NCBI GenBank assembly: GCA_017458085.1
Contig: JAFTGE010000060.1
Span: forward strand, 1 to 33,419
Length of the DNA stretch: 33,419 nt
Source: Oscillospiraceae bacterium
GTDB taxonomy: Bacteria > Bacillota > Clostridia > Oscillospirales > Oscillospiraceae
Direction of reading: 5' to 3'
Positions 621 through 24,072 of the stretch are shown here, piece by piece. The position numbers and the translations under genes were made by a program. Positions within the stretch are counted from its first letter, which is position 1; each line of letters opens with the position of its first letter. The notes under the pieces are model-generated. The model was given only the letters and a program-made list of their open reading frames with translations, was not told the origin of the DNA and searched no databases.

Positions 621-736
621 GGTTTGGAGTTTGGAGAGTGGAGTTTGGAGTTAAGGTGCGCCCGGAGGGCGCGATTCAAATCATCCGCGAAGTGGATTCC
701 ACAACTCCACACTCCACACTCTACACTCCAAACTCA
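621..736. repeat. Heptad-armed intergenic repeat, copy A (short form)
   Basis: The left arm (about 621-651) is a run of 7-bp units of GGAGTTT/GGAGAGT type. The right arm (about 704-736) is the complementary type (ACTCCAC, ACTCCAA). The core holds two hairpins: GTGCGCCC-gga-GGGCGCG at 656-673, and ATCCGC-gaa-GTGGAT at 682-696, which contains a G-T wobble pair. The asnS stop codon lies inside the right arm. The core runs in the same sense as copies G and H and opposite to B-F. Confidence 0.85.
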
Positions 737-2128
737 GAAGTCTGCGTTGCCGGTGGTTCTCGGGTGCAGCTCCACGTCGCGGATGTTGCTGACGCCGGTC
801 AGGTACATGACCAGGCGCTCAAAGCCCAGACCATAGCCCGCGTGACGGCAGCTGCCGTAGCGACGCAGGTCGAGATACCACCAGTAGTCCTCCTTCTTGA
901 GGCCCAGCTCGTCCATGCGCGCTTCGAGCACATCCAGGCGCTCCTCACGCTGGCTGCCGCCGATGATCTCGCCAATGCCGGGGACCAGGCAGTCCGCCGC
1001 CGCGACGGTTTTGCCGTCGTCGTTCAGGCGCATATAAAACGCCTTGATCTCCTTGGGGTAGTCGGTGACAAAGATGGGCTTTTTGAAGACCTCCTCGGTC
1101 AGGTAGCGCTCATGCTCGGTCTGCAGATCGATGCCCCACTGGACGGGGAAGTCGAACTTTTTCCCGCTCTTTTGCAGGATGTCCACAGCCTCGGTGTAGC
1201 TGACGCGGCCAAACTCGTTGTTGACCACGTTATGCAGCCGGTCGATCAGGCCCTTGTCCACAAAGGAATTGAAGAACTCCATCTCCTGCGGGCAGCGCTC
1301 AAAGGTGCGGTTGATGATATACTTGACCATGGCCTCGGCGGTGTCCATATAATCGTCCAGATCGGCAAAGGCCATCTCCGGCTCGATCATCCAGAACTCG
1401 GCGGCGTGGCGCTGGGTATAGCTGACCTCGGCGCGGAAGGTGGGGCCGAAGGTGTACACATCGCCAAAGGCCAGGGCGAAGTTTTCGGCGTTGAGCTGGC
1501 CGGAGACGGTCAGATTCGTGGCCTTGCCGAAGAAGTCCTTGCTGTCGTCGACCGTGCCGTCCTCCTTGCGGGGGAGGTTATTGAGGTCCAGCGTGGTCAC
1601 GCGGAACATCTGGCCCGCGCCCTCGGCGTCGGAGCCGGTGATGATGGGCGTGTTGACATAGACAAAGCCCCGCTGCTGGAAGAACTCATGCACCGCCTGG
1701 GCCGCCACGGAGCGAACGCGGAAGGTGGCGGAAAAGAGATTGGTGCGGGGTCTGAGGTGCTGGATCGTGCGCAGAAACTCCACGCTGTGGCGCTTCTTTT
1801 GCAGGGGGTAGTCCGGCGTGGAGGCGCCCTCGACCGCGATCTCGTCGGCCTTGAGCTCGAAGGGCTGCTTGGCGCCGGGCGTGAGCACCAGGATACCGTG
1901 GACGATCAGCGCCGCGCCGACGTTCTGATGGGCGATCTCCTCATAGTTTGCGAGGGCGGCCCGCTCAAACACCACCTGCAGCGACTTGAAGCAGCTGCCG
2001 TCGTTGAGCTCGATAAAGCCGAAGTTTTTCATATCGCGTACGGTTCTGACCCAGCCGCAGACGGTCACCGTCTGATCGGCAAAGGCGGAAGGCTCGGCAA
2101 AAATGCCGGAAATTTTCTGACGCTTCAT
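734..2128 (-). CDS. asnS: asparagine-tRNA ligase (AsnRS)
   Basis: Class IIb aminoacyl-tRNA synthetase that charges tRNA-Asn with asparagine. The 464-residue product has an N-terminal OB-fold anticodon-binding domain ([18 protein letters not shown], about residues 24-41). Class II motif 2 is near [21 protein letters not shown], and motif 3 near the C-terminus is [13 protein letters not shown]. The N-terminal sequence and the ending in [10 protein letters not shown] favour AsnRS over AspRS. ATG at 2128 has AAAGGA about 12 bases upstream. A good promoter (TTGCAA, 17 bp, TATAAT) lies just upstream and gives a leader of about 30 bases, so there is no room for a T-box. The stop codon falls in the arm of repeat copy A. 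Likely expressed with xpt. Confidence 0.96.
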
Positions 2129-2165
2129 GGGACACGGTTCCTTTCGTGTACGTTATAACTTAAAT

Positions 2166-2194
2166 ATTATATATGCTTCCCCGGCGGATTGCAA
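2166..2194 (-). promoter_or_regulatory. sigma-A-type promoter for asnS(-xpt)
   Basis: On the minus strand, TTGCAA (2189-2194), a 17-bp spacer, and a perfect TATAAT (2166-2171), about 38 bp from the asnS start codon. It abuts the stop codon of the lipid kinase gene, so asnS can be transcribed independently of it. Confidence 0.7.
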
Positions 2195-3082
2195 TTAAAA
2201 AATCAGCTGCACCGGGCAGGGATAGTTGCGCAGCGTGATGTCTGCATACGATCCGCCGGCCTCGCCGTCACGGGTCCAGGCCACGGGCTTTTCAAATTCA
2301 AAATGCGCCTGGGTGGTATGCAGGATGAGCAGGTTCTCGCTGTCAAAGCGCTGGCTTAAAACGCTGTCGAGCACTTCGGTGAAGCCCGCCACGTTGACGG
2401 GGTCCTTCACCAGCACCAGCTCCGACACGCCGTCGCCCAGGCTGACCATCTTGTCGGACAGATGGATGATGCCGGCCACACTGGTGGAGTTGGACATGCT
2501 GCCGTAGAGCAGCTTGCCCTCAAAGACGCCGCCGTCATAGGTGACACGGGTCTGCACGGTCTCGATTTTCCCCAGGGTCTGCATGCCCTGGAGCACATAG
2601 GCCAGGTGGCCCAGGAGCTTTTTCTGGTCCTGGGGCGTGGTATAGCTGACCTCGGTAAAGGCGCCGAAGGCGGCCACATACGCAAAGTACTCCTTGTCCC
2701 CAAAGCCGCCCACATCGTAGGGGTGGGGCGTACCGTCCAGCATGCGCCAGGCGGCAGAGAGCGCGTCGTTCTTCGGCAGGCCCAGGGTGGTGGCCACGTC
2801 GTTGGCCGTGCCCATGGGCATGTAGCCCACCGGCGGGGGAGAGGGCAGGGTCATCAGGCCTGCCAGCACCTCGCTGAGCGTACCGTCGCCGCCGATGCAG
2901 GCAACCGTATCATACTCCCCGGCGGCTGCGGCAAAGCGCGTCGCATCGCCGCGGCCGGCGGTGAAGGCCAGCGTCGTGCGGAAGCCGCCCTTGGAGAGCA
3001 CATGCATGGCCTCGGCAAAATTGTATTTGTAGGCGCCCCGCCCGGCGGCGGGATTGACGATCAGCAACAGGCGTTTTTCCAT
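2195..3082 (-). CDS. diacylglycerol kinase family lipid kinase (YegS/DgkB/BmrU-like)
   Basis: A 295-residue member of the DAGK catalytic superfamily, which uses ATP to phosphorylate a lipid such as diacylglycerol at the membrane surface. Visible signatures are the N-terminal strand and turn RLLLIVNPAAGRG (residues 4-16), the nucleotide-binding motif GGDGTLSE (64-71), and PMGTANDVATTLGLP, the conserved GT-NDfA segment of this family. ATG at 3082 is preceded by GAGGTGA. It lies between rpsT (with a stem-loop and a repeat in the gap) and asnS. The family is clear. The exact lipid substrate, and whether it equals the essential DgkB of Bacillus, cannot be read from the sequence. Confidence 0.9.
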   Translation of the reverse strand: MEKRLLLIVNPAAGRGAYKYNFAEAMHVLSKGGFRTTLAFTAGRGDATRFAAAAGEYDTVACIGGDGTLSEVLAGLMTLPSPPPVGYMPMGTANDVATTLGLPKNDALSAAWRMLDGTPHPYDVGGFGDKEYFAYVAAFGAFTEVSYTTPQDQKKLLGHLAYVLQGMQTLGKIETVQTRVTYDGGVFEGKLLYGSMSNSTSVAGIIHLSDKMVSLGDGVSELVLVKDPVNVAGFTEVLDSVLSQRFDSENLLILHTTQAHFEFEKPVAWTRDGEAGGSYADITLRNYPCPVQLIF

Positions 3083-3111
3083 GGTATCACCTCAGTGGTT
3101 CGATTTGTTGG

Positions 3112-3180
3112 CCCTCATCAGTCACGGCTTCGCCGTGCCAGCTTCGACCCGCAGGGCCCGCGGCCCCAGAGGGGGAAGCA
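3112..3180. repeat. Palindromic intergenic repeat (CCCTCATC...GAGGGGGAAGC type)
   Basis: GC-rich block between rpsT and the lipid kinase. It begins CCCTCATCAGTCACGG, holds the perfect hairpin CACGGC-ttc-GCCGTG (3123-3137) and ends in CCAGAGGGGGAAGC. From memory it resembles a dispersed repeat common in gut Clostridia (CCCTCATCCGTC...AGAGGGGGAAGG), with a divergent GC-rich middle. Only one copy is in this window, so repeat status rests on that recollection. Confidence 0.5.
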
Positions 3181-3207
3181 CTTTTTAGAAACCCTTCCAA
3201 TAAGCCA

Positions 3208-3235
3208 AAACCGGAAAGCGGACGCTTTCCGGTTT
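3208..3235 (-). terminator. Stem-loop terminator after rpsT
   Basis: AAACCGGAAAGC and GCTTTCCGGTTT form a perfect 12-bp stem with a 4-base loop, about 18 bp after the rpsT stop codon. The T-run on the minus strand is short (GGTTTTGG), so termination may be partial. A run of A precedes the stem. Confidence 0.7.
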
Positions 3236-3252
3236 AAAAAACCAGTTTGAAA

Positions 3253-3516
3253 TTATGCCAGCTCGTTGAGCTTGGTCGCCATCGCGGACTTCTTGTGCGC
3301 CGCGTTGTTCTTGTGCAGCAGACCCTTCGCGGCCGCGCGGTCGACTGTCTTAACAGCAACTTTATAGGCACTGACGGCATTGTCGCGGTTACCTTCGGCA
3401 ACGGCTGCGTCAAATTTCTTCACCATGGTCTTGAGCTCGGTCTTATCGGCACGGTTCTTGGCTCTGAGTTCCTTGGACTTCAGATCTCTCTTTGCAGAAG
3501 ATTTAATGTTGGCCAT
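3253..3516 (-). CDS. rpsT: 30S ribosomal protein S20
   Basis: Primary 16S rRNA-binding protein of the small subunit. The 87-residue, lysine/alanine-rich product begins MANIKSSAKRDLKSKELRAKNRA and is helical throughout, as expected for S20. ATG at 3516 has a very strong Shine-Dalgarno (GGAGGAGGTGG). A TATAAT on the minus strand at 3545-3550 could be the -10 box, but I see no convincing -35; that position falls in the hairpin array. In Bacillus rpsT also neighbours gpr, although here the two are divergent. Confidence 0.96.
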   Translation of the reverse strand: MANIKSSAKRDLKSKELRAKNRADKTELKTMVKKFDAAVAEGNRDNAVSAYKVAVKTVDRAAAKGLLHKNNAAHKKSAMATKLNELA

Positions 3517-3537
3517 GTTTCAATCGCCACCTCCTCC

Positions 3538-3740
3538 TATAATGATTATATGATGGCGAAACGCCGCAAAGCGTTTCGCCGAGCTGCGAAGCCGCTCAGC
3601 AAAACAGCAGGCTGTTTTGCCATATATTCATTGCAATGAACATCGCGCAAATGATTGAAACAATCATTTGCAGCCAAACTTATTGTTTGGCAGTGAGAAC
3701 AATCATCGCTTTGATTGTTCTCACTATGCGATGATCATTA
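3538..3740. repeat. Array of consecutive perfect hairpins between rpsT and gpr
   Basis: At least six inverted repeats stand nearly end to end: GGCGAAACGC/GCGTTTCGCC (3555-3580), GAGCTGC/GCCGCTC (3581-3597, one mismatch), GCAAAACAGC/GCTGTTTTGC (3599-3620), TTCATTGCAATGAA (3627-3640), GCAAATGATTG/CAATCATTTGC (3647-3671), GCCAAAC/GTTTGGC (3673-3691), and a 14-bp stem at 3692-3705/3712-3725. TATAATGAT near 3539 is the reverse complement of ATCATTATA near 3734, so the whole array may be bounded by an outer inverted repeat. No coding potential is apparent. The rest of the gap (3741-3902) is AT-rich and would hold the gpr promoter. Confidence 0.8.
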
Positions 3741-3902
3741 TAAAATTGAGTCATCACAACTCGCGTTTAGTGATTATAGCAAATAGAGGTTTGAAAATCA
3801 AGGGTTTTTTCAAAAAAAGTTATTATTTTTTCCGTTTGCTTATCTATTGTGGCAATATTGGGAAAACTATACCATATCTTGATGTGAAAGGTTGCTGAAT
3901 CC

Positions 3903-4829
3903 ATGGCTTTATCCATTCGTACCGATCTGGCCGAGGAAGCACGGCGGCTGTGGCAGCGTGACGCGGAGAAGACCGCGGCGCTGCCCGGCGTGCTCGCGCG
4001 TGAGGAAACGCTGCGCGGTCTGCCGGTGTTTGCGGTTAATATTATAAAGGAAGAAGGCGCCCATGCGCTCGGCAAGGCCATGGGCAAATATTACAGCCTT
4101 CGCCTGCCCGCACACGCCCAGCGCGGCGGAGCAGAGTTTCAGGCCGCGGCGGAGGCCCTGGCCGCGCTGATCCGCCGGTGCATGAAGGAGCCGCCGCAGT
4201 CGGTGCTCGTGGCCGCGCTCGGTAACCCCGATATCACACCCGACGCGCTCGGCTCCCTGGCGGCGGACAGCATTTTGGTCACCCGCCATCTCAAGCAGGC
4301 GCAGCCCCGGGATTTTTCCGGCTTTTGCTCCCTGGCCCTGTGCAGGCCCGGCGTGCTGGGCACGACGGGTATGGAATCCGCCGCGCAGATCGGCATGCTT
4401 GTCCGGGCGCTGCGGCCGGAGCTGGTCATCGTCATCGACGCGCTGGCCGGGGCCGAGGCGGAACAGCTGTGTCGGACGGTGCAGGTGTCCGACGCGGGCA
4501 TCTGCCCCGGCTCCGGCGTCGGCAATGACCGGCAGGAGCTCAGCCGCCGCAGTCTCGGTGTACCGGTGATCTCGCTTGGCATGCCCACGGTGATCGACGC
4601 CGCGGTCTTTGGCGGGGAAGCGATCGGCGGCATGTTCGTCACGCCGCGCGACATCGACAGCCGGGTCCGCGAGGGTGCGCGGATCATCGGCTACGCGGTG
4701 AATCTGGCGGTGCACAGCGGGATCGGCTTTGCGGACATCGACGCGCTGGTGGGAGAGTTTGGAGTGACGAGTGTGGAGTGTGGAGTGTGGAGTGAAGGTT
4801 CCGTCCCTATAGGGACTAGGCACGTCTAA
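3903..4829 (+). CDS. gpr: GPR endopeptidase (germination protease), C-terminus extended by a repeat
   Basis: Spore-specific protease that starts degradation of small acid-soluble DNA-binding proteins during germination; in Bacillus it is made in the forespore as a zymogen. Family marks: RTDLAEEA near the N-terminus (residues 6-13), ALGNPDITPDALG (105-117), VIVIDALAG (175-183) and PGSGVGN (202-208). Total 308 residues. GPR homology ends near residue 286 (DIDALVGEF). The last 22 residues and the stop codon are encoded by the arm and core of repeat copy B. ATG at 3903 has a weak AAAGG 11 bases upstream. I found no clean sigma-G promoter: GCAATA/CATATCT at 3852/3873 has only a 15-bp spacer. Function is secure; the tail is odd. 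Confidence 0.93.
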   Translation: MALSIRTDLAEEARRLWQRDAEKTAALPGVLAREETLRGLPVFAVNIIKEEGAHALGKAMGKYYSLRLPAHAQRGGAEFQAAAEALAALIRRCMKEPPQSVLVAALGNPDITPDALGSLAADSILVTRHLKQAQPRDFSGFCSLALCRPGVLGTTGMESAAQIGMLVRALRPELVIVIDALAGAEAEQLCRTVQVSDAGICPGSGVGNDRQELSRRSLGVPVISLGMPTVIDAAVFGGEAIGGMFVTPRDIDSRVREGARIIGYAVNLAVHSGIGFADIDALVGEFGVTSVECGVWSEGSVPIGTRHV

Positions 4830-4942
4830 AGAAAGGCTTTGCCTTTTTTATGTGCCGTCGCTTCGCGGACTTATTTGATTTGTGCCGCAGGCACACCATA
4901 ACTCCAAACTCAAAACTCCAAACTCCACTCTGCCTTCACTCT
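4752..4942. repeat. Heptad-armed intergenic repeat, copy B (long form)
   Basis: Left arm 4752-4797 (AGTGTGG units, period 7), right arm about 4909-4942 (AACTCCA units). The core contains GTCCCTATAGGGAC, a nested stem GGCAC...GTGCC enclosing AAAGGC-ttt-GCCTTT followed by T residues (4832-4849, terminator-like), then GTCGC-ttc-GCGGAC and GTGCC-gca-GGCAC. The left arm overlaps the 3' end of gpr. By eye the long core differs from copy C at about two positions. Confidence 0.9.
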
Positions 4943-4948
4943 CGTCTC

Positions 4949-4964
4949 TGTTTCACGTGAAACA
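4949..4964. promoter_or_regulatory. parS site 1 (perfect)
   Basis: TGTTTCACGTGAAACA, a perfect 16-bp palindrome matching the Bacillus parS consensus. It is the nucleation site for the ParB clamp. It stands 96 bp upstream of the soj start codon. Confidence 0.93.
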
Positions 4965-4986
4965 GTCGGCGGGACAATTTTAAAAA

Positions 4987-5002
4987 TGTTTCATGTGAAA
5001 CA
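4987..5002. promoter_or_regulatory. parS site 2 (one-base variant)
   Basis: TGTTTCATGTGAAACA differs from the palindrome by one central base. It is 38 bp from site 1 and directly abuts the -35 box of the proposed soj promoter, so bound ParB could block RNA polymerase. Confidence 0.88.
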
Positions 5003-5031
5003 TTGCATTACGCGTCCACAGCTGTTATAAT
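5003..5031 (+). promoter_or_regulatory. Promoter for soj(-parB)
   Basis: TTGCAT (5003-5008), a 17-bp spacer, and a perfect TATAAT (5026-5031) preceded by TGT (extended -10). The -35 match is weak (3 of 6). The predicted start near 5038 leaves a short leader before the soj Shine-Dalgarno. Confidence 0.6.
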
Positions 5032-5059
5032 GACCTCGCAAAAGAGAAAGGATACCGCT

Positions 5060-5818: not shown

Positions 5819-5824
5819 AACTTT

Positions 5825-5996
5825 AGTGTGGAGAGTGGAGTGTGGAGTGTGGAGTGAAGGTTCCGTCCCTAAAGGGACTAGGCACGTCTAAAGAAAGGCT
5901 TTGCCTCTTTTATGTGCCGTCGCTTCGCGGACTTATTTGATTTGTGCCGCAGGCACACCATAACTCCAAACTCAAAACTCCAAACTTCAAACTCAC
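5825..5996. repeat. Heptad-armed intergenic repeat, copy C (long form)
   Basis: Fills the soj-parB gap. The left arm (5825-5857) is AGTGTGG-type heptads. The core has GTCCCTAAAGGGAC, a nested terminator-like hairpin, GTCGC-ttc-GCGGAC and GTGCC-gca-GGCAC. The right arm (about 5961-5996) is AACTCCA-type. By eye the core differs from copy D at two positions. The parB Shine-Dalgarno lies immediately after it. Confidence 0.9.
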
Positions 5997-6009
5997 AGGA
6001 AGGGATTCT

Positions 6010-6873
6010 ATGGCAAAGGAAAAAAAGGGACTCGGGACGGGACTCGGCGTTCTCTTTGGTGAGGATCGCTTTGACGAGGAAGAAAGCGAGCTGCAAACTC
6101 TGCCCATCGCCAAGGTGGAACCCCGGCAGGATCAGCCCCGCGTCAGCTTTGACGACGAGGCTTTGCAGGAGCTGGCCGAGTCGATCGCGCAGTATGGCCT
6201 GATCCAGCCCATCACCGTGCGCAGGCTTTCAAGCGGCTATTATCAGATCATCGCCGGCGAACGGCGCTGGCGTGCCTCCCGGCTGGCCGGTCTGTCCGAG
6301 GTGCCGGTGCGCGTCATCGAGGCCGACGACCGCCGCGCCGCAGAGCTGGCGCTGGTGGAGAATTTACAGCGCGAGGATTTGAGCCCGCTGGAGGAGGCCC
6401 GGGGCTACAAGGCCCTGATGGAGGAATACGGCCTGACCCAGGAGGACGCCGCCCGCGCGGTGGGCAAGTCGCGCCCCACGGTGGCAAACGCTCTGCGGCT
6501 GTTAAATCTCAGCGCGGCAGTGCTGGACATGCTGGAAAAAGGGCAGCTCACCGCCGGTCACGCCCGGGCGCTGGTATCCATTTCCGATGAAACGCTCCAG
6601 CTGGCCGCGGCGAAGGAGGTCGCGGAAAAGGGTCTGTCCGTCCGGCAGACGGAGCAGCTGGCCGCAAAGCTCTCTCGCGAGGTCAAGGCGCCAAAGAAGG
6701 ATGACGGCGCCATTCACGTGGACTACGCCGCCGAGGTTGCCGCACGGCTCAGTCAGCGTCTGGGGCGCAAGGTGCGCCTTGTCGACGGCAGGAAGACCGG
6801 CCGGATCGAAATCGAATTTTACGGCGCCGACGACCGGGAGGCCCTGATCTCAGCGCTGGAAAAGCTGAAATGA
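6010..6873 (+). CDS. parB: ParB/Spo0J chromosome partition protein
   Basis: CTP-dependent DNA clamp that loads at parS, spreads along origin DNA and works with Soj and SMC. In 287 residues the order is: N-terminal Soj-interacting leader KKGLGTGLGVLFGED (5-19), ParB/Srx CTPase motif GERRWRAS (83-90), ENLQREDLSPLEEA (117-130), helix-turn-helix LTQEDAARAVGKSRPTVANA (142-161), and a C-terminal dimerisation segment. ATG at 6010 has AGGAAGGG upstream; a longer in-frame reading from 5944 would be translated repeat sequence. The two parS sites ahead of soj are its probable targets. Co-transcription with soj is likely unless copy C attenuates. Confidence 0.95.
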   Translation: MAKEKKGLGTGLGVLFGEDRFDEEESELQTLPIAKVEPRQDQPRVSFDDEALQELAESIAQYGLIQPITVRRLSSGYYQIIAGERRWRASRLAGLSEVPVRVIEADDRRAAELALVENLQREDLSPLEEARGYKALMEEYGLTQEDAARAVGKSRPTVANALRLLNLSAAVLDMLEKGQLTAGHARALVSISDETLQLAAAKEVAEKGLSVRQTEQLAAKLSREVKAPKKDDGAIHVDYAAEVAARLSQRLGRKVRLVDGRKTGRIEIEFYGADDREALISALEKLK

Positions 6874-7042
6874 AGTGTGGAGTGTGAAGAGTGGAGTGTG
6901 GAGTGAAGGTTCCGTCCCTAAAGGGACTAGGCACGTCTAAAGAAAGGCTTTGCCTCTTTTATGTGCCGTCGCTTCGCGGACATTTTTGATTTGTGCCGCA
7001 GGCACACCATAACTCCAAACTCCAAACTCAAAACTCCACTCT
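6874..7042. repeat. Heptad-armed intergenic repeat, copy D (long form)
   Basis: Between parB and serS. The left arm (6874-6907) has AGTGTGG/AGTGTGAAG heptads, the core is nearly identical to copy C, and the right arm (about 7011-7042) is CTCCAAACTCC-type. It starts directly at the parB stop codon. The 46 bp from 7043 to the serS start hold only an AT-rich leader and ribosome binding site. Confidence 0.9.
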
Positions 7043-7088
7043 ATAACGTGAGACCGAAAAATAACATAAACAGAAGGAAGATACGACT

Positions 7089-8408: not shown

Positions 8409-8436
8409 AATTTTTACAATAAAGGAGTAGAAACCA

Positions 8437-8880: not shown

Positions 8881-8895
8881 ACGTTCTTCCCTTGC

Positions 8896-8941
8896 AAAAC
8901 CGATGGCATAGATACGCTGTATCTATGCCATCGGTTTTTTT
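8896..8941 (+). terminator. Strong Rho-independent terminator after mscL
   Basis: A perfect 20-bp stem (8896-8915 with 8919-8938), loop GCT, ending in seven T residues, 16 bp after the mscL stop. It separates the parB-serS-mscL side from the hydrolase gene. Confidence 0.93.
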
Positions 8942-8967
8942 ACGCAAGGTTTTCTAATAAAAATAGA

Positions 8968-8996
8968 TAGACCTTTTGCGCAAAGAATGCTATACT
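8968..8996 (+). promoter_or_regulatory. Promoter for the alpha/beta hydrolase gene
   Basis: TAGACC (8968-8973), a 17-bp spacer, and TATACT (8991-8996); 4/6 and 5/6 matches to sigma-A consensus. Right after it is an inverted repeat GTTAG-aatatg-CTAAC (9000-9015), covering the predicted transcription start, which could be an operator. Confidence 0.6.
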
Positions 8997-11489: not shown

Positions 11490-11670
11490 CTTTTCCACAT
11501 TTGGATGAGGAAAAGTGGAAAGTGAAATGTGGTTAAAAAATTGCTAAAGTCAGGTGTGGAAAAAGGCAAATTTGTCCACAAATTTTTTAACGGAACAAAG
11601 TCCCGCACGGTAAGACTTTGAGGCGGTTTTCCACAAAAAATTTGCCTACTACTATGGCTACTAAAAAAGA
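11490..11670. other. oriC: DnaA-box cluster, AT-rich segment and DnaA-trios
   Basis: Non-coding dnaA-dnaN gap with five 9-mers, each one mismatch from TTATCCACA: TTTTCCACA at 11491-11499, TGTGGTTAA at 11528-11536 (reverse), TGTGGAAAA at 11555-11563 (reverse), TTGTCCACA at 11572-11580, TTTTCCACA at 11627-11635. Eleven bases after the last box comes CTACTACTATGGCTACTA (11646-11663), matching the DnaA-trio element at which Bacillus DnaA opens the duplex, followed by an A-rich run. Order and orientation (box, short spacer, trios) match the Bacillus basal unwinding system. The remainder to 11700 leads into the dnaN ribosome binding site. Confidence 0.88.
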
Positions 11671-11715: not shown

Positions 11716-12822
11716 ATGAAATTCAGCTGTGAAAAATATTTGCTGCAAACAGCCTGCGCGGTCGCGTCCCGTGCCGCCGCCTCCAAGAGCCCGATCCCCG
11801 CGCTGGAGGGTCTGCTCATTTCCGCCGACGACCGCGTGCGCGTCAAGGGCTATGACCTGAAAAAGGGTATCGTCACCGCCGTCGACGCCGACATTTCCGA
11901 GCGCGGCGCCGTCGTCGTGGGTGCGCGCCTGTTCGGGGAAATGATCCGCCGCCTGCCTGACGGCATCGTCACCATCACCGCCGACGAGAAGGACAATATC
12001 TTTGTAAAATGCGGCAAGAGCCAGTTTAATTTCATCGGCATCAGCACCCAGGATTATCCGGAACTGCCCAGCTTCGACGCGGTCAATTCCATCGCCCTGC
12101 CGCAGAACATCCTCAAGGACATGATCAACAAGACGCTCTTTGCTGTCTCCACCGACGAGGTGCGGCCCATCTACACCGGCACGCTGTTTGAGATCGACGG
12201 CGACGAGCTGACGCTGGTCTCCGTGGACGGCTATCGCCTGGCCAAGCGCACCGAGAAGCTCGAGAGCGCCGAGATGGAAAACTGCAGCTTTGTCGTGCCG
12301 GGCAACGCCCTCAGTGACGTGGAGAAAATCTGCACCGACGAGGAGGAGCCCGTGCGCATCTCCGTCGGCGCCAAGCACATCTCTTTTGCCATCGGCGACG
12401 CGGTGGTGGTCTCCCGCCGGCTGGAGGGTGAGTTCCTAAACTATCGCCGCTCCATTCCCGAGACGTTTCGGTATGAGCTGAAGGTTGACCGCGGCGAGCT
12501 GATGAATTCCATCGACCGCGTCTCCCTCATCGTCAGCGAGAAAAATTCCAGCCCCGTGCGCATGACCTTAAACGACGGCACCATCGACTGCCTCTGCGTC
12601 ACGCCCATCGGCCGGGCTGAGGACGTCTGCACCTGCGAGGGCAGCGGCGAGGGGCTGCTGATCGGCTTTAATGACCGGTATATGAAGGACGCCTTGAAGG
12701 CGGCCGGCGTCGATGAGCTCAAGCTCTGCATCAATACCGCCTCCTCCCCCTGCATCATCAAGGCCGCCGACGGCAGCGAGAGCTTTACCTACATGGTGCT
12801 GCCGGTGAGACTGCACGCATAA
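11716..12822 (+). CDS. dnaN: DNA polymerase III beta subunit (sliding clamp)
   Basis: Ring-shaped processivity clamp that tethers DNA polymerase III and repair enzymes to DNA. The 368-residue product begins MKFSCEKYLLQTACAVASRAA. It includes SADDRVRVKGYDLKKGI and ISTQDYPELP typical of clamp domain I-II, LVSVDGYRLAKR in domain II, and the C-terminal MVLPVRL that forms part of the partner-binding pocket. ATG 11716 has GAAGGAG. It sits directly downstream of oriC in the standard place. Repeat copy E separates it from the S4-protein gene, so the usual dnaN-recF transcription passes through a hairpin element here. Confidence 0.97.
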   Translation: MKFSCEKYLLQTACAVASRAAASKSPIPALEGLLISADDRVRVKGYDLKKGIVTAVDADISERGAVVVGARLFGEMIRRLPDGIVTITADEKDNIFVKCGKSQFNFIGISTQDYPELPSFDAVNSIALPQNILKDMINKTLFAVSTDEVRPIYTGTLFEIDGDELTLVSVDGYRLAKRTEKLESAEMENCSFVVPGNALSDVEKICTDEEEPVRISVGAKHISFAIGDAVVVSRRLEGEFLNYRRSIPETFRYELKVDRGELMNSIDRVSLIVSEKNSSPVRMTLNDGTIDCLCVTPIGRAEDVCTCEGSGEGLLIGFNDRYMKDALKAAGVDELKLCINTASSPCIIKAADGSESFTYMVLPVRLHA

Positions 12823-12824
12823 TA

Positions 12825-12960
12825 GAGTGGAAAGTTTAGAGTGGAGTGTGGAGTTAAGGAGCGTCTTCAGCTCAATTTATGTGACGTCGCGCAGCGGACG
12901 ATTATAATTGCGCCGCAGGCACACCATAACTCCAAACTCCACTCTCCACACTCCAAACTA
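12825..12960. repeat. Heptad-armed intergenic repeat, copy E (intermediate form)
   Basis: Fills the dnaN to S4-gene gap. Left arm 12825-12855 (GAGTGG, GTTTAGA, GTGGAGT units), right arm about 12929-12960 (ACTCCAAACTCC type). The core has GTCGC-gca-GCGGAC and a degenerate TGCGCC-gca-GGCACA hairpin. It lacks the GTCCCTAAAGGGAC segment of the long form. Confidence 0.85.
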
Positions 12961-12975
12961 TAAGGAATTAATTCT

Positions 12976-14542: not shown

Positions 14543-14543
14543 C

Positions 14544-14715
14544 GAGAGTGGAGAGTGGAGAGTGAAGAGTGGAGTTATGGTGTCCGCCCCTAAAGGGACT
14601 AGGCACGTCTAAAGAAAGGCTTTGCCTCTTTTATGTGCCGTCGCGAAGCGGACGATTTGAATCGTGCCCTTCGGGCGCACGATAACTTCACTCTCCACAC
14701 TTCAAACTCCACACT
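14544..14715. repeat. Heptad-armed intergenic repeat, copy F (long form)
   Basis: Between remB and gyrB. Left arm 14544-14576 (GAGAGTG, GAAGAGT, GGAGTT), right arm about 14684-14715 (AACTTCACTCTCC, ACTTCAAACTCC). The long core matches B-D from CCTAAAGGGAC to ATGTGCCGTCG. After that the hairpins have changed sequence but kept stems: GTCGC-gaa-GCGGAC (loop inverted from TTC), then ATCGTGCCC-ttc-GGGCGCACGAT in place of GTGCC-gca-GGCAC. Confidence 0.9.
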
Positions 14716-14735
14716 GAAAAAGAATGGAGAATTAT

Positions 14736-16673
<1,938 letters not shown>

Positions 16674-16675
16674 AC

Positions 16676-16790
16676 GAGAGTGTGGAGTTTGGAGTTTTGA
16701 GTTTGGAGTTATGGTGTGCCTGCGGCACAAATCAAATAAATCCGCGAAGCGGAACATTCACTCCACACTTCACCCTCCACACTCCACACT
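16676..16790. repeat. Heptad-armed intergenic repeat, copy G (short form, inverted)
   Basis: After gyrB. Left arm 16676-16709 (AGTGTGGAGTTTGG type), core 16710-16755, right arm about 16759-16790 (ACTCCACACTTCACC type). The core is the reverse complement of the end of the B-D core: GTGCC-tgc-GGCAC, ATTTGATTTA in reverse, and TCCGC-gaa-GCGGA. It therefore has opposite orientation relative to transcription. Confidence 0.87.
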
Positions 16791-16807
16791 GAAAAAAGGA
16801 GAACGCC

Positions 16808-17821: not shown

Positions 17822-17853
17822 TAAATTTAACCTCTCCCTAGGAGGACACAACA

Positions 17854-20373
17854 TTGGCACATAAAAGAGATTACAAACCCGAGGATATCGCGTTTCCCAA
17901 TCAGGTGATCACCGAATCCGAGCTGGTCAGCGAAATGCAGACCAGCTATATCGACTACGCCATGTCCGTCATCGTCGGCCGCGCCCTGCCCGATGTGCGC
18001 GACGGTCTCAAGCCCGTGCACCGGCGCATTCTCTACACGCTCTACGAGGACGGTCTGACCAGCGACAAGCCCTTTAAAAAGTCCGCCACCTGCGTCGGTG
18101 ACGTGCTGGGCCGCTACCATCCCCATGGCGACGCCTCCGTCTACGACGCGATGGTGCGCCTGGCGCAGAGCTTTTCCATGCGCATGATGCTCATCGACGG
18201 CCACGGCAACTTCGGCTCCGTCGACGGCGATCCCCCCGCGGCCTACCGTTACACCGAGGCAAGGCTCTCCAAGCTCTCCAACGAGATGCTGCGCGACATC
18301 GACAAGGAGACCGTGGACTGGGACCCCAACTTCGACGAGACGCGCAGGGAGCCGCGCGTGCTGCCCTCGCGCTTTCCGAACCTGCTGGTCAACGGCTCTT
18401 CCGGCATCGCCGTCGGCATGGCCACCAATATCCCGCCCCACAACCTCACCGAGGTCATCAACGCCTGCGTCTGCGTGCTGGATAACCCCGACGCCCAGCT
18501 CAGCGACCTGATGCAGCATATCACCGGGCCGGACTTTCCCACGAAGGGCATCATCATGGGCCGCAGCGGTATCCGCCAGGCCTACGCCACCGGCCGCGGC
18601 CGCGTCATCGTGCGCGCGCGGACGGAGTTTGAGGAGCACGGCCAGGGCCGCACCCGCATCATCGTCACCGAGCTGCCCTATCAGGTCAACAAGCGGCAGC
18701 TGATCCGCAACATCGCAGACCAGGTGCACGACAAGCGGCTGGAGGGTATCTCCGACCTCAGAGACGAGACCGACCGCAACGGCATGCGCATCGTCATCGA
18801 ACTCAAACGGGACGCCAATCCCCAGGTGGTGCTCAACCGGCTCTTTGCCCAGACCGCCATGCAGTCGAGCTTTTCCATCAACATGCTGGCCCTGGTGAAT
18901 AACCAGACCCAGCCGAAGATCCTCTCCCTGCGCCACATTCTGGACGAGTACCTGAGCTTCCAGGAGGAGATCATCGTCCGGCGCACGAAATACGATCTCA
19001 AGAAGGCGCAGGAGCGCGCCCATCTGCTGGAGGGCCTGCTGATCGCCCAGGACAACATCGACGAGGTCATCCGCATCATCCGCAGCAGCTACGACGACGC
19101 GAAGGCCCGCCTCATGGAGCGCTTCGGTCTCGACGACGTGCAGGCCCAGGCCATCTGCGACATGCGCCTGATCGCCCTGCAGGGTCTCAACCGCGAGAAG
19201 CTGGAGAACGAGTACAAGGAGCCTGAGGCGAAGATCGCCTATTATAACGAGCTGCTCAACAGCCCTGAGATGATCAAGGGCGTCTTAAAGGACGAGCTGA
19301 TCGCCCTGCGCGACAAGTACGGCGACCAGCGCATGACCGAGATCCAGGATGTGGCCGACGAGATCGACATCGAGGACCTCATCGAGGAGGAGCAGTGCGT
19401 CTACACCCTGACCCACGGCGGCTATATCAAGCGCATGCCCGTCAGCGAGTACCGCGCCCAGGGCCGCGGCGGGAAGGGAATCCGCGCCATGGCCACCAAG
19501 GAGGAGGATTACGTCCAGACGGTCTTCACCGCCTCGACCCACGACTTTATCCTGTTCTTTACCTCCAAGGGCCGCGTCTTCGTCAAGAAGGGCTACAACA
19601 TCCCCGAGGCCGGCCGCAGCGCCCGCGGCACCAACATCGTCAACATCATCCCTGTGGAAAACGGCGAGACGCCCGAAAAGGTCAGCGCCATGATCCGCGG
19701 CCGCGGCATGGATCACGAGAGCTATCTGCTCTTTGTCACCCGTAACGGCACCGTCAAGCGCATGGCCCAGTCCGCCCTGCGCAATATCCGCTCCAACGGC
19801 CTGCGGGCCATCACCCTCGACGAGGGGGACGAGCTCATCTCCGTGCTGCCCACCACCGGGGAGGAGAATATTTTGATCGCCACGCGCAACGGCATGGCCG
19901 TCTGCTTCAACGAAGCCGAGCTGCGCTCCCTGGGCCGGCAGGCCATGGGTGTGCGCGGTATCCGCCTGAGAGCGGGGGACTACGTCGTCGGCGCCGGCAG
20001 CAGCGGCAGCGGCAGCGCCGTGCTCACCATCACCGAAAAGGGCTACGGCAAGCGCACCTCGCTGGAGGAATACGCCGTGCACGGCCGCGGCGGTATCGGC
20101 ATCAAGAACTATAACTGCACCGAAAAGACCGGCCTGGTCGCTGACATGAAGATCGTCACCGGCGAGGAGGACCTGCTGGTCATCTCCGACGACGCCACCA
20201 TCATCCGCATGGCGGTGGACCACATCTCCCTGCTGGGCCGCGCGACTCAGGGCGTGCGCATCATGCGCCTGACCCCGGGCAGCCGGGTGATCTCCATCGA
20301 GTGCACCGAGAAAAATCCCGCCGCCGACACGGTCGAGCCGGAGAACGCGGCGGAGGAGACCGAGACCGAATAA
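17854..20373 (+). CDS. gyrA: DNA gyrase subunit A (TTG start)
   Basis: DNA-cleaving subunit of gyrase. In 839 residues: the winged-helix domain with [20 protein letters not shown] (29-48), quinolone region [13 protein letters not shown] (88-100), catalytic Tyr133 in RYTEAR, a coiled-coil gate, then the C-terminal beta-pinwheel with the GyrA box QGRGGKG that marks gyrase rather than topoisomerase IV. It ends in an acidic tail rich in Glu. The start is TTG at 17854, eight bases after a perfect AGGAGG; the next in-frame Met is inside the conserved core. Residue 94 (E. coli 83) is Ala and residue 95 (E. coli 84) is Ser, the reverse of E. coli. Confidence 0.96.
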
Positions 20374-20394
20374 ACCGAAGCGGGAGGGACAGCC

Positions 20395-20664
20395 ATGAAC
20401 AATAACGACAGACAGACAAATGCCCATTTCATCATCAGCGTTGTGCTGCTGGCCGGCTTTCTCATCCTCGGCACGCTCAGCCAGCGGGAGGGCTTCCTGG
20501 AATCCACGGGCTTTCGCGTCGGGGCCACAGCCTTTATCATTTTTCTGGGCGTGAGCCTGATGCTCTATCGGGGCGGCGCGCTGGGCACCTTTGCCAAGCG
20601 CTGGAAGAAGGAGCCGGAACAGCCCGCCGCCGAGGAAAAGAACGAGGAAACAAGCAACGAATAA
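20395..20664 (+). CDS. small two-helix membrane protein, function unknown
   Basis: An 89-residue protein I do not recognise. Polar N-terminus (MNNNDRQTNA), TM helix 1 at about 13-29 (FIISVVLLAGFLILGTL), a short loop, TM helix 2 at about 42-58 (VGATAFIIFLGVSLMLY), then a charged tail with KRWKKEP and many Glu residues. The positive segment after TM2 suggests both ends face the cytoplasm. ATG 20395 has GGGAGGG. It lies 21 bp after gyrA and 15 bp before the next small gene, probably in one transcript. Confidence 0.8.
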   Translation: MNNNDRQTNAHFIISVVLLAGFLILGTLSQREGFLESTGFRVGATAFIIFLGVSLMLYRGGALGTFAKRWKKEPEQPAAEEKNEETSNE

Positions 20665-20679
20665 ACGGGAGGTCTGACC

Positions 20680-21126
20680 GTGAACGGCGACAAAAAGAAC
20701 CGGAAAAAGAACGGCTCCAGCTTTGTGATGGGGCTTGCTCTGCTGATCATATTCGGCGTGGTCAGCAACCTTGCCGAGGGCGGCGGCAGCGCCGAATCCA
20801 TCGCGATGCTTGTTGTGATCGCCGCAATTTTGATCATCGCCGCGGCGTTTGCGGCGCTGTTTAAAAAGGCGGCCGCGGGCACAGCCAAGACGCAGACACA
20901 GCGCCCGACGCCTGCCCGTCACGCAGAGAACCGACGCGCTGTCCGTCCGACAACTCACGCCCACACCGAGAGCGAGGAGGCCGTTCGCTGCGCCCACAGC
21001 CGCGGCAAGCAGAAGTATCTCGAACAGCTGGACAGCTTTCTCGCCAACGGCATCATCGACCGCGCCGAGTACAAGCTCATGCGCGAGCGCTATGAGCAGC
21101 TGGATATCCCGGATGATTTCCATTGA
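20680..21126 (+). CDS. membrane protein with SHOCT-like C-terminus (GTG start)
   Basis: A 148-residue protein starting at GTG 20680 behind GGGAGGT. After a basic N-terminus (DKKNRKKN) come two probable TM helices (about 14-30 and 41-61, the latter IAMLVVIAAILIIAAAFAAL), an Arg/Thr-rich linker (about 68-105), and a C-terminal helical segment KYLEQLDSFLANGIIDRAEY that resembles the SHOCT (short C-terminal) domain, a roughly 30-residue module often attached to membrane or phospholipid-interacting proteins. No enzymatic motif. It follows the other small membrane protein by 15 bp; the two may act together, but that is a guess. The 38 bp to rnhA are featureless. Confidence 0.75.
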   Translation: MNGDKKNRKKNGSSFVMGLALLIIFGVVSNLAEGGGSAESIAMLVVIAAILIIAAAFAALFKKAAAGTAKTQTQRPTPARHAENRRAVRPTTHAHTESEEAVRCAHSRGKQKYLEQLDSFLANGIIDRAEYKLMRERYEQLDIPDDFH

Positions 21127-21164
21127 GCTGACGTCAGGCGGGTTGCGAGATTAACATTGTACCT

Positions 21165-21608
21165 ATGAAATCAGTTGAAATCTATACCGACGGCGCTTGC
21201 AGCGGCAATCCGGGTCCCGGAGGCTGGGGCGCGATTTTGCGCTATAACGGCGCGGAAAAGACCCTCTCCGGCGGCGAAAGGCAGACCACCAACAACCGCA
21301 TGGAGCTGACGGGCGTGATCATGGCCCTCGCCGCGCTCAAGGAGCCCTGCGTCGTCGAGCTCTACTCCGACTCCAAGTACGTCATCGACGCGCTGGACAA
21401 GGGCTGGGCCTGGGGCTGGCGCAAAAAGGGCTGGATCAAGTCCGACAAGAAGCCCGCGCTGAATCCCGATCTGTGGGAACAGCTTTTGAATCTGACGGCA
21501 AAGCACGAGATGCATTATCACTGGGTCAAGGGCCACGCCGACAACGAATACAACAACCGCTGCGACGCCCTGGCCGTGGCCGAGCGGGAGAAATACGCCG
21601 CGTTATGA
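21165..21608 (+). CDS. rnhA: ribonuclease HI
   Basis: Cleaves RNA in RNA-DNA hybrids (R-loops, Okazaki primers). The 147-residue product has all catalytic residues: Asp9 (YTDGACSGNPGPGG), Glu47 (NNRMEL), Asp69 (YSDSKYV) and Asp134 (NNRCD), plus His124 (KGHADNEYNN). It also has the basic protrusion WAWGWRKKGW (81-90) typical of E. coli-type RNase HI. I see no Shine-Dalgarno before ATG 21165, which is unusual here. Its stop overlaps the ABC transporter start (ATGA), so that gene may depend on rnhA translation. Confidence 0.95.
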   Translation: MKSVEIYTDGACSGNPGPGGWGAILRYNGAEKTLSGGERQTTNNRMELTGVIMALAALKEPCVVELYSDSKYVIDALDKGWAWGWRKKGWIKSDKKPALNPDLWEQLLNLTAKHEMHYHWVKGHADNEYNNRCDALAVAEREKYAAL

Positions 21609-23377
21609 ACAAAAAAACCGTAAACTTCCACGACAAACCCTTAAAAATATTTGCCCACTACATCGCCGGACACAAGGACCTGTTTTTCATCGACATGGTC
21701 TGCGCGGTGCTGGTGGCGGTGATCGACCTGCTCTTTCCCTATGTGTCGCGCCTGACTATGTACCGGCTGCTGCCGAATCGCCTGTACCGCACCTTCTTCG
21801 CGGTGATGGCGATTCTGGTGGCGGCCTATGTGCTCAAGGGCGTGCTGTACTATATCATCACGGTGCTGGGCCACCGCATGGGTGTGCTGACCGAGTTTGA
21901 TATGCGGCGCGACGTGTTCACCCATATGCAGGATCTGAGCTTCTCCTTCTACGACAAAAACCGCACGGGCGTGCTGATGAGCCGTATCACCAGCGACCTG
22001 TTCGACGTGACGGAGCTTGCGCACCACGGGCCGGAGAACATCCTGATCTGTACGCTGACGCTGGGCGGCGCGCTGGTGATGATGCTGCTCCTCAATTGGC
22101 GGCTGGGACTGGTAATGACGCTGGTGCTGCCGCTGTGCTTGTGGTTCACGCTGTCCCAGCGGGTGCGTATGAAGACGGCCAACGTCGAGGTCAAGCGCAA
22201 AACCGCCGAGATCTACGCCGCCATCGAGTCGAGCATCTCCGGTGTGCGCACGGCCAAGGCCTTTGCCAACGAAGCGCAGGAAGCCGCGAAATTCGACCGC
22301 GCCAACGACGTCTTCCGCGGCGCCAAGGTGGAGTACTACAACGCCATGGGCCTGTTCATGAGCGGGATGGAATTTACGATGGGCGTGGCGCAGGTGGTGG
22401 TCATCGCCGTGGGCGGATGGCTCATCATGCGCGGGAAGATGGACTATGTGGACCTGATCACCTTCTCGCTCTACGTTTCCACCTTTGTCAGCCCCATCCG
22501 GAAGCTGGCCCAGTTTTCGGAGCAGTATATACAGGGCATGGCGGGCTTTGGCCGCTTCATTGAAATCATGAACACCGAGCCGACCATCACCGACCGGCCC
22601 GACGCCGAAGCGCTTTCCGCCGTGCGCGGTGAAATCGAGTACCGCGACGTCAGCTTCAACTACGACAACGGCGTTCCGGTCCTGTCGCATATCGATCTGC
22701 ACATTCAGCCGGGGCGGAGCCTTGCCATAGTGGGGCCCTCCGGCGGCGGCAAAACCACCCTGTGCCAGCTGCTGCCGCGCTTTTACGATGTGACCGGCGG
22801 CGCGGTGCTGGTCGACGGCGTCGACGTGCACGACGTGACGCAGGCGAGCCTGCGGAAAAACATCGGCATCATCCAGCAGGATGTGTTCATGTTCGCCGGC
22901 ACCGTGCGGGAGAATATCCGCTACGGCCGGCCCGACGCCACCGACGCCGAGATCGTCGAGGCCGCCGTGCGCGCCCAGATTCACGAGGAGATCCTGCAGA
23001 TGCCCGACGGCTACGACACCTATATCGGCGAGCGGGGCGTCATGCTCTCCGGCGGGCAGAAGCAGCGGCTTTCCATCGCCCGCGTTTTCCTGAAAAACCC
23101 GAAAATTCTGGTGCTGGACGAGGCAACCTCGGCCCTCGATACTGTGACCGAGCAGCGCATTCAGGCGTCTCTCGACGCGCTGAGCCAGGGCCGCACCAGC
23201 ATCATCATCGCCCACCGTCTTTCCACCGTCAAGAATGCCGACTGCATCGCCGTGGTGGAGGACGAACACATTGTGGAGCTGGGCACCCACGAGGAGCTTA
23301 TGGCGAAAGACGGCGTTTACGCCGCGCTGTGCCGGGCGCAGGCGCTCGGCGGGACAAAGGAGGAACATCTATGCTGA
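21605..23377 (+). CDS. ABC exporter, fused membrane and ATPase domains
   Basis: A 590-residue half-transporter of the lipid/multidrug exporter (MsbA/LmrA/BmrA-like) type, expected to dimerise in the membrane. The N-terminal half has about six TM helices (for example FFIDMVCAVLVAVIDLLF, about 27-44). The ATPase has Walker A GPSGGGKTT (near 378), Q-loop IIQQDVFMFAGT, signature LSGGQKQRLSIARV (near 481), Walker B ILVLDEATSALD (near 501) and switch His in IIAHRLSTVK. Start at 21605 overlaps rnhA by four bases; a longer in-frame reading runs through rnhA and is not credible. It overlaps the acetyltransferase start by seven bases. Substrate unknown. Confidence 0.92.
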   Translation: MNKKTVNFHDKPLKIFAHYIAGHKDLFFIDMVCAVLVAVIDLLFPYVSRLTMYRLLPNRLYRTFFAVMAILVAAYVLKGVLYYIITVLGHRMGVLTEFDMRRDVFTHMQDLSFSFYDKNRTGVLMSRITSDLFDVTELAHHGPENILICTLTLGGALVMMLLLNWRLGLVMTLVLPLCLWFTLSQRVRMKTANVEVKRKTAEIYAAIESSISGVRTAKAFANEAQEAAKFDRANDVFRGAKVEYYNAMGLFMSGMEFTMGVAQVVVIAVGGWLIMRGKMDYVDLITFSLYVSTFVSPIRKLAQFSEQYIQGMAGFGRFIEIMNTEPTITDRPDAEALSAVRGEIEYRDVSFNYDNGVPVLSHIDLHIQPGRSLAIVGPSGGGKTTLCQLLPRFYDVTGGAVLVDGVDVHDVTQASLRKNIGIIQQDVFMFAGTVRENIRYGRPDATDAEIVEAAVRAQIHEEILQMPDGYDTYIGERGVMLSGGQKQRLSIARVFLKNPKILVLDEATSALDTVTEQRIQASLDALSQGRTSIIIAHRLSTVKNADCIAVVEDEHIVELGTHEELMAKDGVYAALCRAQALGGTKEEHLC

Positions 23378-23940
23378 ACATTCGCAAGGGCGGCCACCGG
23401 GAGCTGGAGCGCTACTACCCGCTGATGGAGATCGACTTTGACAGCGAGGAGCTGGTCGGCAAGCTCGCCATCCACCGCGGCATGATGAACGGCAGCGTGG
23501 AGCTGCTGATCGTCACCGACGACGAAACGGGCATGGACGCGGCCTACGCGCTCATGCTGACCAAGAGTCTGTACGGCTATGTGGATATGAAGTACATGGG
23601 GGTCATGCCCTGGTTTCGGGGCAAGGGCCTCGGCATCCAGACCATGCGCCTGATCAACAAGTACTACGCCGACACGCAGGGCATCCTCGCGGAGATCACG
23701 GAGTTTGACGACCCCGATCCGGATCGGCTCCGCAAGCTGAAAAAGTTCTTTCATCGCTTTGGGTATGAGGAGATCCCCTGCGACTGCACCATCCGCGGCG
23801 TGAGGGACAACGTCTATCTCAAGCCCATCAAGGGCACGGCGGACATCGCGCCGATCATCCACCGCGTGCTCCCCGATTTCTACACCCGCTTTCTGCCCGA
23901 CGCCGCCGTCTGGCGCATGCTGGAGATCAAACGAGAGTGA
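23371..23940 (+). CDS. GNAT-family N-acetyltransferase
   Basis: A 189-residue GNAT-fold protein that should transfer an acetyl group from acetyl-CoA. Motif A is visible as YMGVMPWFRGKGLGIQTMRL (about 74-93), where RGKGLG is the pyrophosphate-binding R-x-x-G-x-G/A loop. ATG 23371 has a near-perfect AAAGGAGG and overlaps the exporter's end by seven bases, so the two are co-expressed; a modify-and-export pair is possible but unproven. The last codons and stop (GAG TGA) run straight into repeat copy H, so the original C-terminus may have been altered. Substrate unknown. Confidence 0.85.
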   Translation: MLNIRKGGHRELERYYPLMEIDFDSEELVGKLAIHRGMMNGSVELLIVTDDETGMDAAYALMLTKSLYGYVDMKYMGVMPWFRGKGLGIQTMRLINKYYADTQGILAEITEFDDPDPDRLRKLKKFFHRFGYEEIPCDCTIRGVRDNVYLKPIKGTADIAPIIHRVLPDFYTRFLPDAAVWRMLEIKRE

Positions 23941-24054
23941 AGAGTGGAGAGTGAAGAGTGGAGTTATTGTGCGCCTTCGGCGCAATTCAAATTGTCCGCG
24001 AGACTCCATAACTCTACACTCCACACTCCAAACTCCACACTCCAAACTCCACCC
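23941..24054. repeat. Heptad-armed intergenic repeat, copy H (short form)
   Basis: Between the acetyltransferase and mfd. Left arm 23941-23966 (AGAGTGG, AGAGTGAAG units), core hairpin TTGTGCGCC-ttc-GGCGCAATT (about 23967-23987), a degraded second hairpin (GTCCGCGAGAC), then the longest right arm (about 24003-24054), seven AACTCCA/CACTCCA units. Orientation as in copies A and G. The 18 bp to mfd carry only its ribosome binding site. Confidence 0.88.
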
Positions 24055-24072
24055 TGAATCTGTAAGGTAAAC

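Follow-up and report, generated by a model that had tools for sequence, protein, structure and literature searches.

Heptad-armed intergenic repeats of an Oscillospiraceae bacterium as likely gene-less members of an element family that carries an IVP/S23 gene

Eight short repeats whose arms consist of tandem 7-bp units (heptads) are found between genes in a 33,419-nucleotide stretch of DNA from an Oscillospiraceae bacterium (GenBank assembly GCA_017458085.1, contig JAFTGE010000060.1, positions 1 to 33,419 of the forward strand), the whole of which is referred to here as the window. Sequence comparison makes it likely that these eight elements are gene-less members of a mobile family whose full-length form carries an IVP/S23 gene, of the kind also found in the intervening sequences (IVS) of 23S rRNA, between inverted arms of approximately five heptads, and that a ring of the encoded IVP binds the heptads and allows the family to spread without a transposase of its own.

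The gene-bearing form was found in the same genome. An arm profile based on sequence only (E up to 0.1), run on the 2.67-Mb draft (135 contigs, 93.5% complete), gave 54 arm matches that make up 29 places, of which 8 are in the window and 21 outside it; 18 of the latter have two arms and 3 have one, so that 26 two-armed places are present in total. A preliminary description of this DNA would have been refuted had the genome held no further copies, a condition that the 21 additional places rule out. One of them (L052), in the gap between a mutL-like and a miaA-like gene, measures 461 bp including its arms and holds a 123-residue open reading frame (ORF) between them. The product matches TIGR02436 ('four helix bundle protein', 3.8e-33) and PF05635 (23S_rRNA_IVP, 7.6e-31), as well as PDB entry 2rld (8.4e-35; one entry, five chains), and reaches 2gsc (Xcc0516, five chains) with an E value of 0.22 only. 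Since PF05635 has no match in the draft other than at this armed place, the window copies would seem to be gene-less members of an IVP-carrying element family. Five IVP loci with GGAG-type arms, all two-armed, were found in three genomes, namely L052 in its own and L081, L080, L128 and L131 in the congeners G037 and G060, and the five proteins are adjacent in the leaf order of an IVP tree (support values not considered). L080 and L131 read, from left to right, heptads, hairpin, gene, hairpin and heptads, and in the gene-less copies these same two hairpin modules adjoin directly with no gene between them. An in-frame ATG stands at the inner end of the left arm in L081 and L128 (GGAGTTATGG), a motif that is kept in several gene-less copies. 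GGAG-type IVP genes also lie beside mutL-like genes in all three genomes, after the gene in L052 and before it in L081 and L128 (G037 and G060).

Heptad arrays beside IVP genes extend well beyond this genus. PF05635 is present in 49 of 99 genomes searched, and from its 108 matches a less selected set of 90 loci (30 returned and 60 fetched) was chosen regardless of arms, the 18 left out being mostly weak, cut or with a stop. An array was counted where a 21-nt stretch within 200 nt of the gene had at least 17 self-matches at its best lag. By this measure 41 of 90 loci carry an array on one side, 39 of them at lag 7 or 14, and 28 of 88 on the other, 27 of them at lag 7 or 14, although the sides are exchanged for 15 loci in these counts; control stretches 500 nt farther out gave 1 of 83 and 0 of 86. 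With orientation corrected and a threshold of 15, period-7 arrays flank the gene on both sides in 31 of 90 loci and on at least one side in 43. A second set, the best 80 of at least 343 places confirmed in a protein-pattern scan of named genomes, spans, according to record titles, Clostridia, Selenomonadales, Proteobacteria, Acidobacteria, Bacteroidota, Cyanobacteria, Planctomycetota and Verrucomicrobia, along with Kiritimatiellae, Nitrospirae, Treponema, Armatimonadetes and candidate phyla. Lags of 7, 14 and 8 were found in 37, 6 and 5 of 80 upstream flanks and in 36, 8 and 7 of 78 downstream flanks, with lag-7 controls of 1 of 74 and 0 of 74, a fraction that is inflated because the scan was seeded with IVPs taken mostly from heptad-bearing loci. 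When both sets are pooled (170 IVP loci), a 7-nt array is present in 156 of 337 flanks and in 1 of 316 control stretches 700-900 nt away. The number of units per arm peaks at 5 (74 arms), followed by 4 (40), 6 (15) and 3 (8), three units being the detection floor.

Ten genomes reached through the named loci contain 33 IVP matches, and 28 of the 29 loci read there have an array of lag 7, 8 or 14 on at least one side (L349 is the exception); IVP copies within one such genome mostly carry different heptads. Among plasmid records, period-7 arrays stand on both sides of the gene in all 8 loci examined, which were taken from 56 hits and represent five distinct contexts, and a single query of phage records returned no IVP match. 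Other arm types were also seen: a period of 8 in L208, L244, L340 and L354, and a period of 15 (7+8) in the downstream arm of L197 and L201. L130, L142, L153, L174 and L175 are IVP genes without heptads that have strong flanking inverted repeats (alignment score 46-57), which indicates that heptads are not the sole arm type.

The heptads themselves are related to one another and to the proteins they adjoin. After rotation and choice of strand, 85 upstream-arm heptads align to AG[T/G]NNNN with 4.15 bits of information, compared with 3.31 (standard deviation 0.08) for permuted heptads (12 permutations), and AG lies on the same strand relative to the gene in 77 of the 85. Heptad distance is 0.179 within a locus and 0.481 between loci (64 loci), the partner arm being the nearest in 39 of 64. 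Across 95 proteins the heptad distance tracks the IVP tree (Mantel r 0.209, against at most 0.070 in 500 permutations), a modest correlation that is also compatible with common descent without recognition; related sequences are not independent, and these statistics therefore speak for association and not for recognition. Complementarity between the two arms of an element is slightly lower within elements (20.56 of 28) than between them (21.47; 25 elements, 1 dropped). The hairpin was accordingly dropped as a conserved feature, and the lack of excess complementarity favours rows of protein sites over a hairpin.

These same data bear on whether the arrays could be simple-sequence expansions, produced by polymerase slippage and gene conversion and associated with IVP genes only incidentally. 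Very long arrays do exist, with 24-33 units in five arms and another long array in Anabaena sp. 90, and slippage has been proposed for heptamer repeats by authors cited in an earlier study (PMC4692102). Expansion is nonetheless very improbable, given that hardly any arrays occur at 500-900 nt from these IVP genes, that opposite arms share their heptad, that unit number peaks at five and that the heptads follow the IVP tree.

In the window, each element consists of a left arm of tandem GGAGTKT-like heptads, a core of GC-rich hairpins and an inverted right arm. All eight elements of the preliminary description were found again with this plan, and its coordinates were nearly right, with the edges of every element except 621-736 shifting by some nucleotides on the heptad grid. 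The names of ordinary genes (gpr, soj, parB, serS, dnaN, gyrB, asnS, rpsT and others) are presumed from the appearance of the encoded proteins. The features are as follows.

621..736, minus strand: element 1, flanked by minus-strand genes at 17-586 and 734-2128 (asnS-like); abuts the stop codon of the asnS-like gene
4754..4933, plus strand: element 2, long subtype; overlaps the called 3' end of a gpr-like ORF (3903-4829), upstream of soj
5823..5996, plus strand: element 3, long subtype; soj-parB gap
6872..7044, plus strand: element 4, long subtype; parB-serS gap
12822..12961, plus strand: element 5; between dnaN and a gene for an S4-domain protein
14543..14717, plus strand: element 6, long subtype; gap between a DUF370 gene and gyrB, beginning right after a TGA stop codon
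16676..16792, plus strand: element 7, compact subtype; gap between gyrB and an NAD-epimerase-like gene, with two core hairpins, one GTGCCTGCGGCAC-like and one TCCGCGAAGCGGA
23932..24057, plus strand: element 8, compact subtype; the stop codon of the upstream gene lies inside the left arm
4818..4844, 5880-5906, 6929-6955 and 14601-14627, plus strand: matches to the module pattern, part of the internal module of the long subtype (AGGCACGTCTAAAGAAAGGC...)

A 21-nt heptad scan of the window (threshold 14 of a possible 21) returned 51 hits, 50 of them in the 16 expected arms and 1 at 11510; each of 20 mononucleotide shuffles gave 0 and the sequence read backwards gave 12. When 15 of the 16 arms are aligned (all but the right arm of element 1), reverse-complemented right arms match left arms without gaps over 44 nt, comprising about 4 heptads and an inner GGAGTKA-like unit, and this gapless fit means that the number of units is rather constant and does not vary from copy to copy as the preliminary description had it. 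The module of the long copies, approximately 58 nt, lies within the core hairpins, and the hairpin that hosts it differs between copies. It was considered as an independent element and rejected; all 8 of its 8 pattern matches in the genome (up to 3 mismatches) are inside heptad elements, so that it marks a subtype. Neither Rfam at gathering scores nor a tRNA scan gave a match in the window.

The presence of 8 of the 29 places within 1.25% of the genome (33 kb) has a probability of 2e-9 under uniform placement, a figure that is too strong because three window copies in successive gaps are approximately 94% alike and point to local duplication; local copying may explain much of the clustering. 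Gene context was read from a codon-usage caller trained on 12 window ORFs, which gave a coherent gene list. Called protein genes lie on both sides of each of the eight window copies and of 20 further classed places. The claim that every copy lies between genes of the same strand holds for strand in all eight window copies and fails in part for position, element 2 overlapping an ORF end at 4829 and so not being strictly intergenic. Genome-wide, 26 of the 29 places are between co-directional genes, 1 is divergent, 1 convergent and 1 unclassed, and in 25 of 29 an element edge is within 10 nt of the stop codon of an adjoining gene. This proximity may be an insertion preference or the result of selection, operon gaps leaving little other room.

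A conserved, non-mobile RNA element acting on operon mRNA, through RNase III processing, attenuation or a terminator-like function, would account for several of these features: 26 of the 28 classifiable places are co-directional, the stop codons are close, the hairpins predicted in the four window copies that were folded are strong (z-scores -4.6 to -7.8), and 23S IVS are cut by RNase III (PMC4990558). It is quite unlikely, however, since 25 of 27 neighbouring gene pairs in the window are on the same strand in any case, no compensatory pairing is seen within elements, and the element is missing from two of three examined gaps in most congeners.

The last of these points comes from a comparison of orthologous gaps in loci from 30 of 61 genomes searched (our own and 29 congeners). 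Of the 30 loci, 26 have a soj-parB gap of no more than 70 nt, two (our own and G022) a GGAG-armed one and two a long one without heptads. Between parB and serS, 24 of 30 have no more than 70 nt, our own genome and G037 have GGAG arms, three have a long gap without heptads, and G027 has an AGTGAAA-like array that a loose threshold counts as GGAG-type. The gap between the DUF370 gene and gyrB is at most 70 nt in 11 of 30, GGAG-armed in our own genome and G037 and long without heptads in 15, while G045 and G054 have related heptads there, which a loose threshold again counts as GGAG-type. Directly after gyrB, G058 has an IVP gene with AATTAGG heptads that are clear on one side only. The preliminary suggestion of mobility is thus supported: most loci have nothing in the soj-parB and parB-serS gaps, and heptads of other families occupy some gaps, from which it appears that the family moves.

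Clearer pairs of occupied and unoccupied sites come from named cyanobacterial plasmids. On plasmid pNe_5 of Nostoc edaphicum, an IVP gene with GGGAGTA arms lies between two ribonucleotide-reductase genes; at this point Calothrix sp. NIES-4105, of which 59% aligns at 85% identity, shows a short AT-rich gap and no IVP element. Between cas6 and cas4, Anabaena sp. 90 carries an IVP gene with GGTGACA/GGGAACA heptads; Dolichospermum sp. UHCC 0315A, of which 60% aligns at 99.4% identity, lacks it and has a different repeat in that position. The cas6-cas4 gap of Pseudanabaena galeata also holds an IVP gene, and that of Pseudanabaena ABRG5-3 (L384 977-1014) contains no gene and little besides about four ATTACGA-like heptads.

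Eukaryotic foldback elements have terminal inverted repeats made of short tandem units, and miniature inverted-repeat transposable elements (MITEs) are short non-autonomous units. The window elements share with MITEs their inverted ends, short length, multiple copies and non-autonomous character. They could accordingly be classical MITEs, non-autonomous derivatives of DD(E/D) or Y1 elements whose transposase binds the heptads in trans and in which the IVP gene is a passenger. Dispersal in high copy number and empty sites suit this proposal, the heptads would act as repeated binding sites, and no GGAG-type IVP was seen in four of the seven arm-richest genomes. We regard it as unlikely. In contrast to MITEs and foldback elements, the gene-bearing member here encodes the IVP and no transposase, and no target duplication stood out in a scan of 26 elements whose arm edges are fuzzy; no transposase-encoding full-length relative was seen, PF01797 being the only family searched genome-wide, and the link between IVP and heptads recurs across many phyla with different heptads. 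PF01797 (Y1, or REP-associated tyrosine transposase, RAYT) was tried as a partner and rejected, its four loci in the genome (one a fragment at a contig edge) having no arms near. Mobilization of a repetitive extragenic palindromic (REP) or REPIN-type element by such a protein is barely credible: PF01797 genes are present and GGAG beside GC hairpins resembles the REP tetranucleotide plan, but the element does not flank any of the four Y1 loci and the gene between the arms is an IVP gene, not Y1. The statement that these repeats are unlike the usual MITE or REP plan derived from insertion sequences is supported as far as PF01797 is concerned, other transposase families not having been searched.

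Several observations weigh against an IVP-driven family and temper its likelihood. Of the seven arm-richest genomes, only three showed a GGAG-type IVP; PF05635 has no match in G022 (53 arms) or G049 (18 arms), each 79% complete, and G058 and G027 have other heptads or none at those of their IVP loci that were read. In the less selected set, 47 of 90 IVP loci are without a period-7 array on either side, some of them still with inverted repeats. An offset scan of 26 of our own elements found no enriched target-site duplication, the edges of heptad arms being fuzzy, and one of the eight plasmid loci reaches 19 of 21 in its 'far' control stretch as well. The inflated array fraction in the named set, the modest Mantel correlation and the lower arm complementarity within elements, all given above, belong here as well.

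A working model for how such a family might spread can be outlined. The IVP ring, of five four-helix bundles, would bind an arm with each subunit on one of roughly five AG[T/G]NNNN sites in a row; it is the combination of a five-bundle ring with an array peak at five heptads that suggests one heptad per subunit. Binding is probably to single-stranded RNA or DNA, a guess based on the 7-nt step, which differs from the pitch of the double helix; IVPs are mildly basic (median isoelectric point 8.4, n=86). Once bound, the IVP would single out both the element that encodes it and, in trans, gene-less copies to be copied into gaps beside stop codons. With the IVP start codon at the inner end of the arm in two copies, binding may also repress translation of the IVP itself, a form of autoregulation. 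The element encodes no transposase for the cut-and-join step, and an RNA route using an enzyme supplied in trans is possible.

Gene-less forms of IVS exist. The 23S rRNA IVS, such as that of Coxiella burnetii, shares with the present family the protein, the terminal inverted repeats and the form of a short element with one ORF (PMC4990558). Its function and origin are called unclear in that paper, which cites a proposed but unproved mobility by way of its ORF (Ralph and McClelland 1993, as cited in PMC4990558). Unlike the IVS, the elements described here, which are known from DNA, lie between protein genes, have tandem-heptad arms and are dispersed in tens of gene-less copies. Of the features of an IVS, terminal inverted repeats are present and the IVP/S23 ORF occurs in 1 of 29 places of our own genome, the window copies being gene-less; insertion in a 23S rRNA helix was not seen, the window having no Rfam match and the neighbours being protein genes. 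PF05635 is reported to be homologous to Avd of diversity-generating retroelements, which works with a reverse transcriptase (PMC10053308). Neither a reverse transcriptase nor a template/variable repeat came to notice in the elements read, no search having been aimed at them.

A broader proposal, to which we give slightly better than even chances, is that free-standing IVP/S23 genes across the bacteria are the core of one class of small, transposase-less mobile element, in which a pentameric protein is matched to arms of about five heptads; every IVP lineage would recognize an AG-cored heptad of its own and spread gene-less copies that bear it. Orphan heptamers such as Xanthomonas GGGAATC and Nostoc GGGGAYT, and perhaps short tandemly repeated repetitive (STRR) sequences and TAACTGA, would be copies of this kind, and the 23S rRNA IVS would be a branch that settled in rRNA. 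If an IVP ring does read heptads, the function and origin of IVS and the role of heptamer repeats become one question, and the widely annotated 'four helix bundle protein' or 'S23 ribosomal protein' gains a job. There would then be a mobile element that multiplies to tens of copies though it encodes no recombinase, along with a simple experimental way into how it is copied, and a number of repeat families of other bacteria that lack an explanation would share one origin.

The published heptamers allow this proposal to be checked. Xanthomonas GGGAATC and Nostoc/Anabaena GGGGA(C/T)T were described without a role (PMC4692102) as tandem, intergenic heptamers mostly of four units, the intergenic ones mostly closer to the 5' neighbouring ORF; GGGAATC often forms convergent pairs, 70 of them in X. 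campestris. G-quadruplexes were considered with no role found, and no binding protein is named in the sections consulted. Among 369 genomes drawn from the class of Thiohalocapsa, tandem GGGAATC (three units, at most one mismatch) was found in one, G475, with 19 matches, overlapping ones counted. The sole PF05635 match of G475 (model residues 1-64, broken reading frame) has GGGAATC-type arms on both sides and lies between genes that we take to be accB and accC. A partial IVP match of Anabaena sp. UHCC 0204 (L355) has GGGGATT/GGGGACT heptads after it and no array seen on its other side, and IVP genes on Planktothrix plasmids adjoin rows of AATCCCC, the other strand of the GGGGATT motif. Tandem intergenic heptads are common to the Xanthomonas/Nostoc repeats and the family described here, where they are seen beside IVP matches. 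They are shared also, in sets of two to several units, with the tandem heptanucleotides of Calothrix mentioned in the same paper (PMC4692102) and with the TAACTGA repeats of Beggiatoaceae (PMC4679880). The latter are nearly all direct repeats, with one inverted set, and the term 'four helix' does not occur in that text (PMC4679880). Among the papers listed in searches of open-licence literature, none links IVP genes to heptad repeats.

Other repeats were noted in the course of this work. The divergent gap between the rpsT-like and gpr-like genes of the window (3541-3760) contains a seeming run of short imperfect hairpins without heptads. Congener gaps near parB, serS and gyrB (L268, L307, L312, L278) hold another long-armed repeat, for example CTTCCCCTTGAGGGGAAGG or CCTCCCTCTTTGAGGGAGG; the gaps filled by it show no heptads, and a separate GGAG-type copy is present in the soj-parB gap of L268. 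In the gap between the DUF370 gene and gyrB, G027 (L318) has an ORF that we read, from a familiar motif, as a Y1/RAYT transposase. The corresponding gap of G022 (L300) holds a small ORF, which in our reading resembles GIY-YIG endonucleases, flanked by inverted GGATTGCCAC...CACTGG-like repeats; this ORF with its repeats is perhaps another type of small element.

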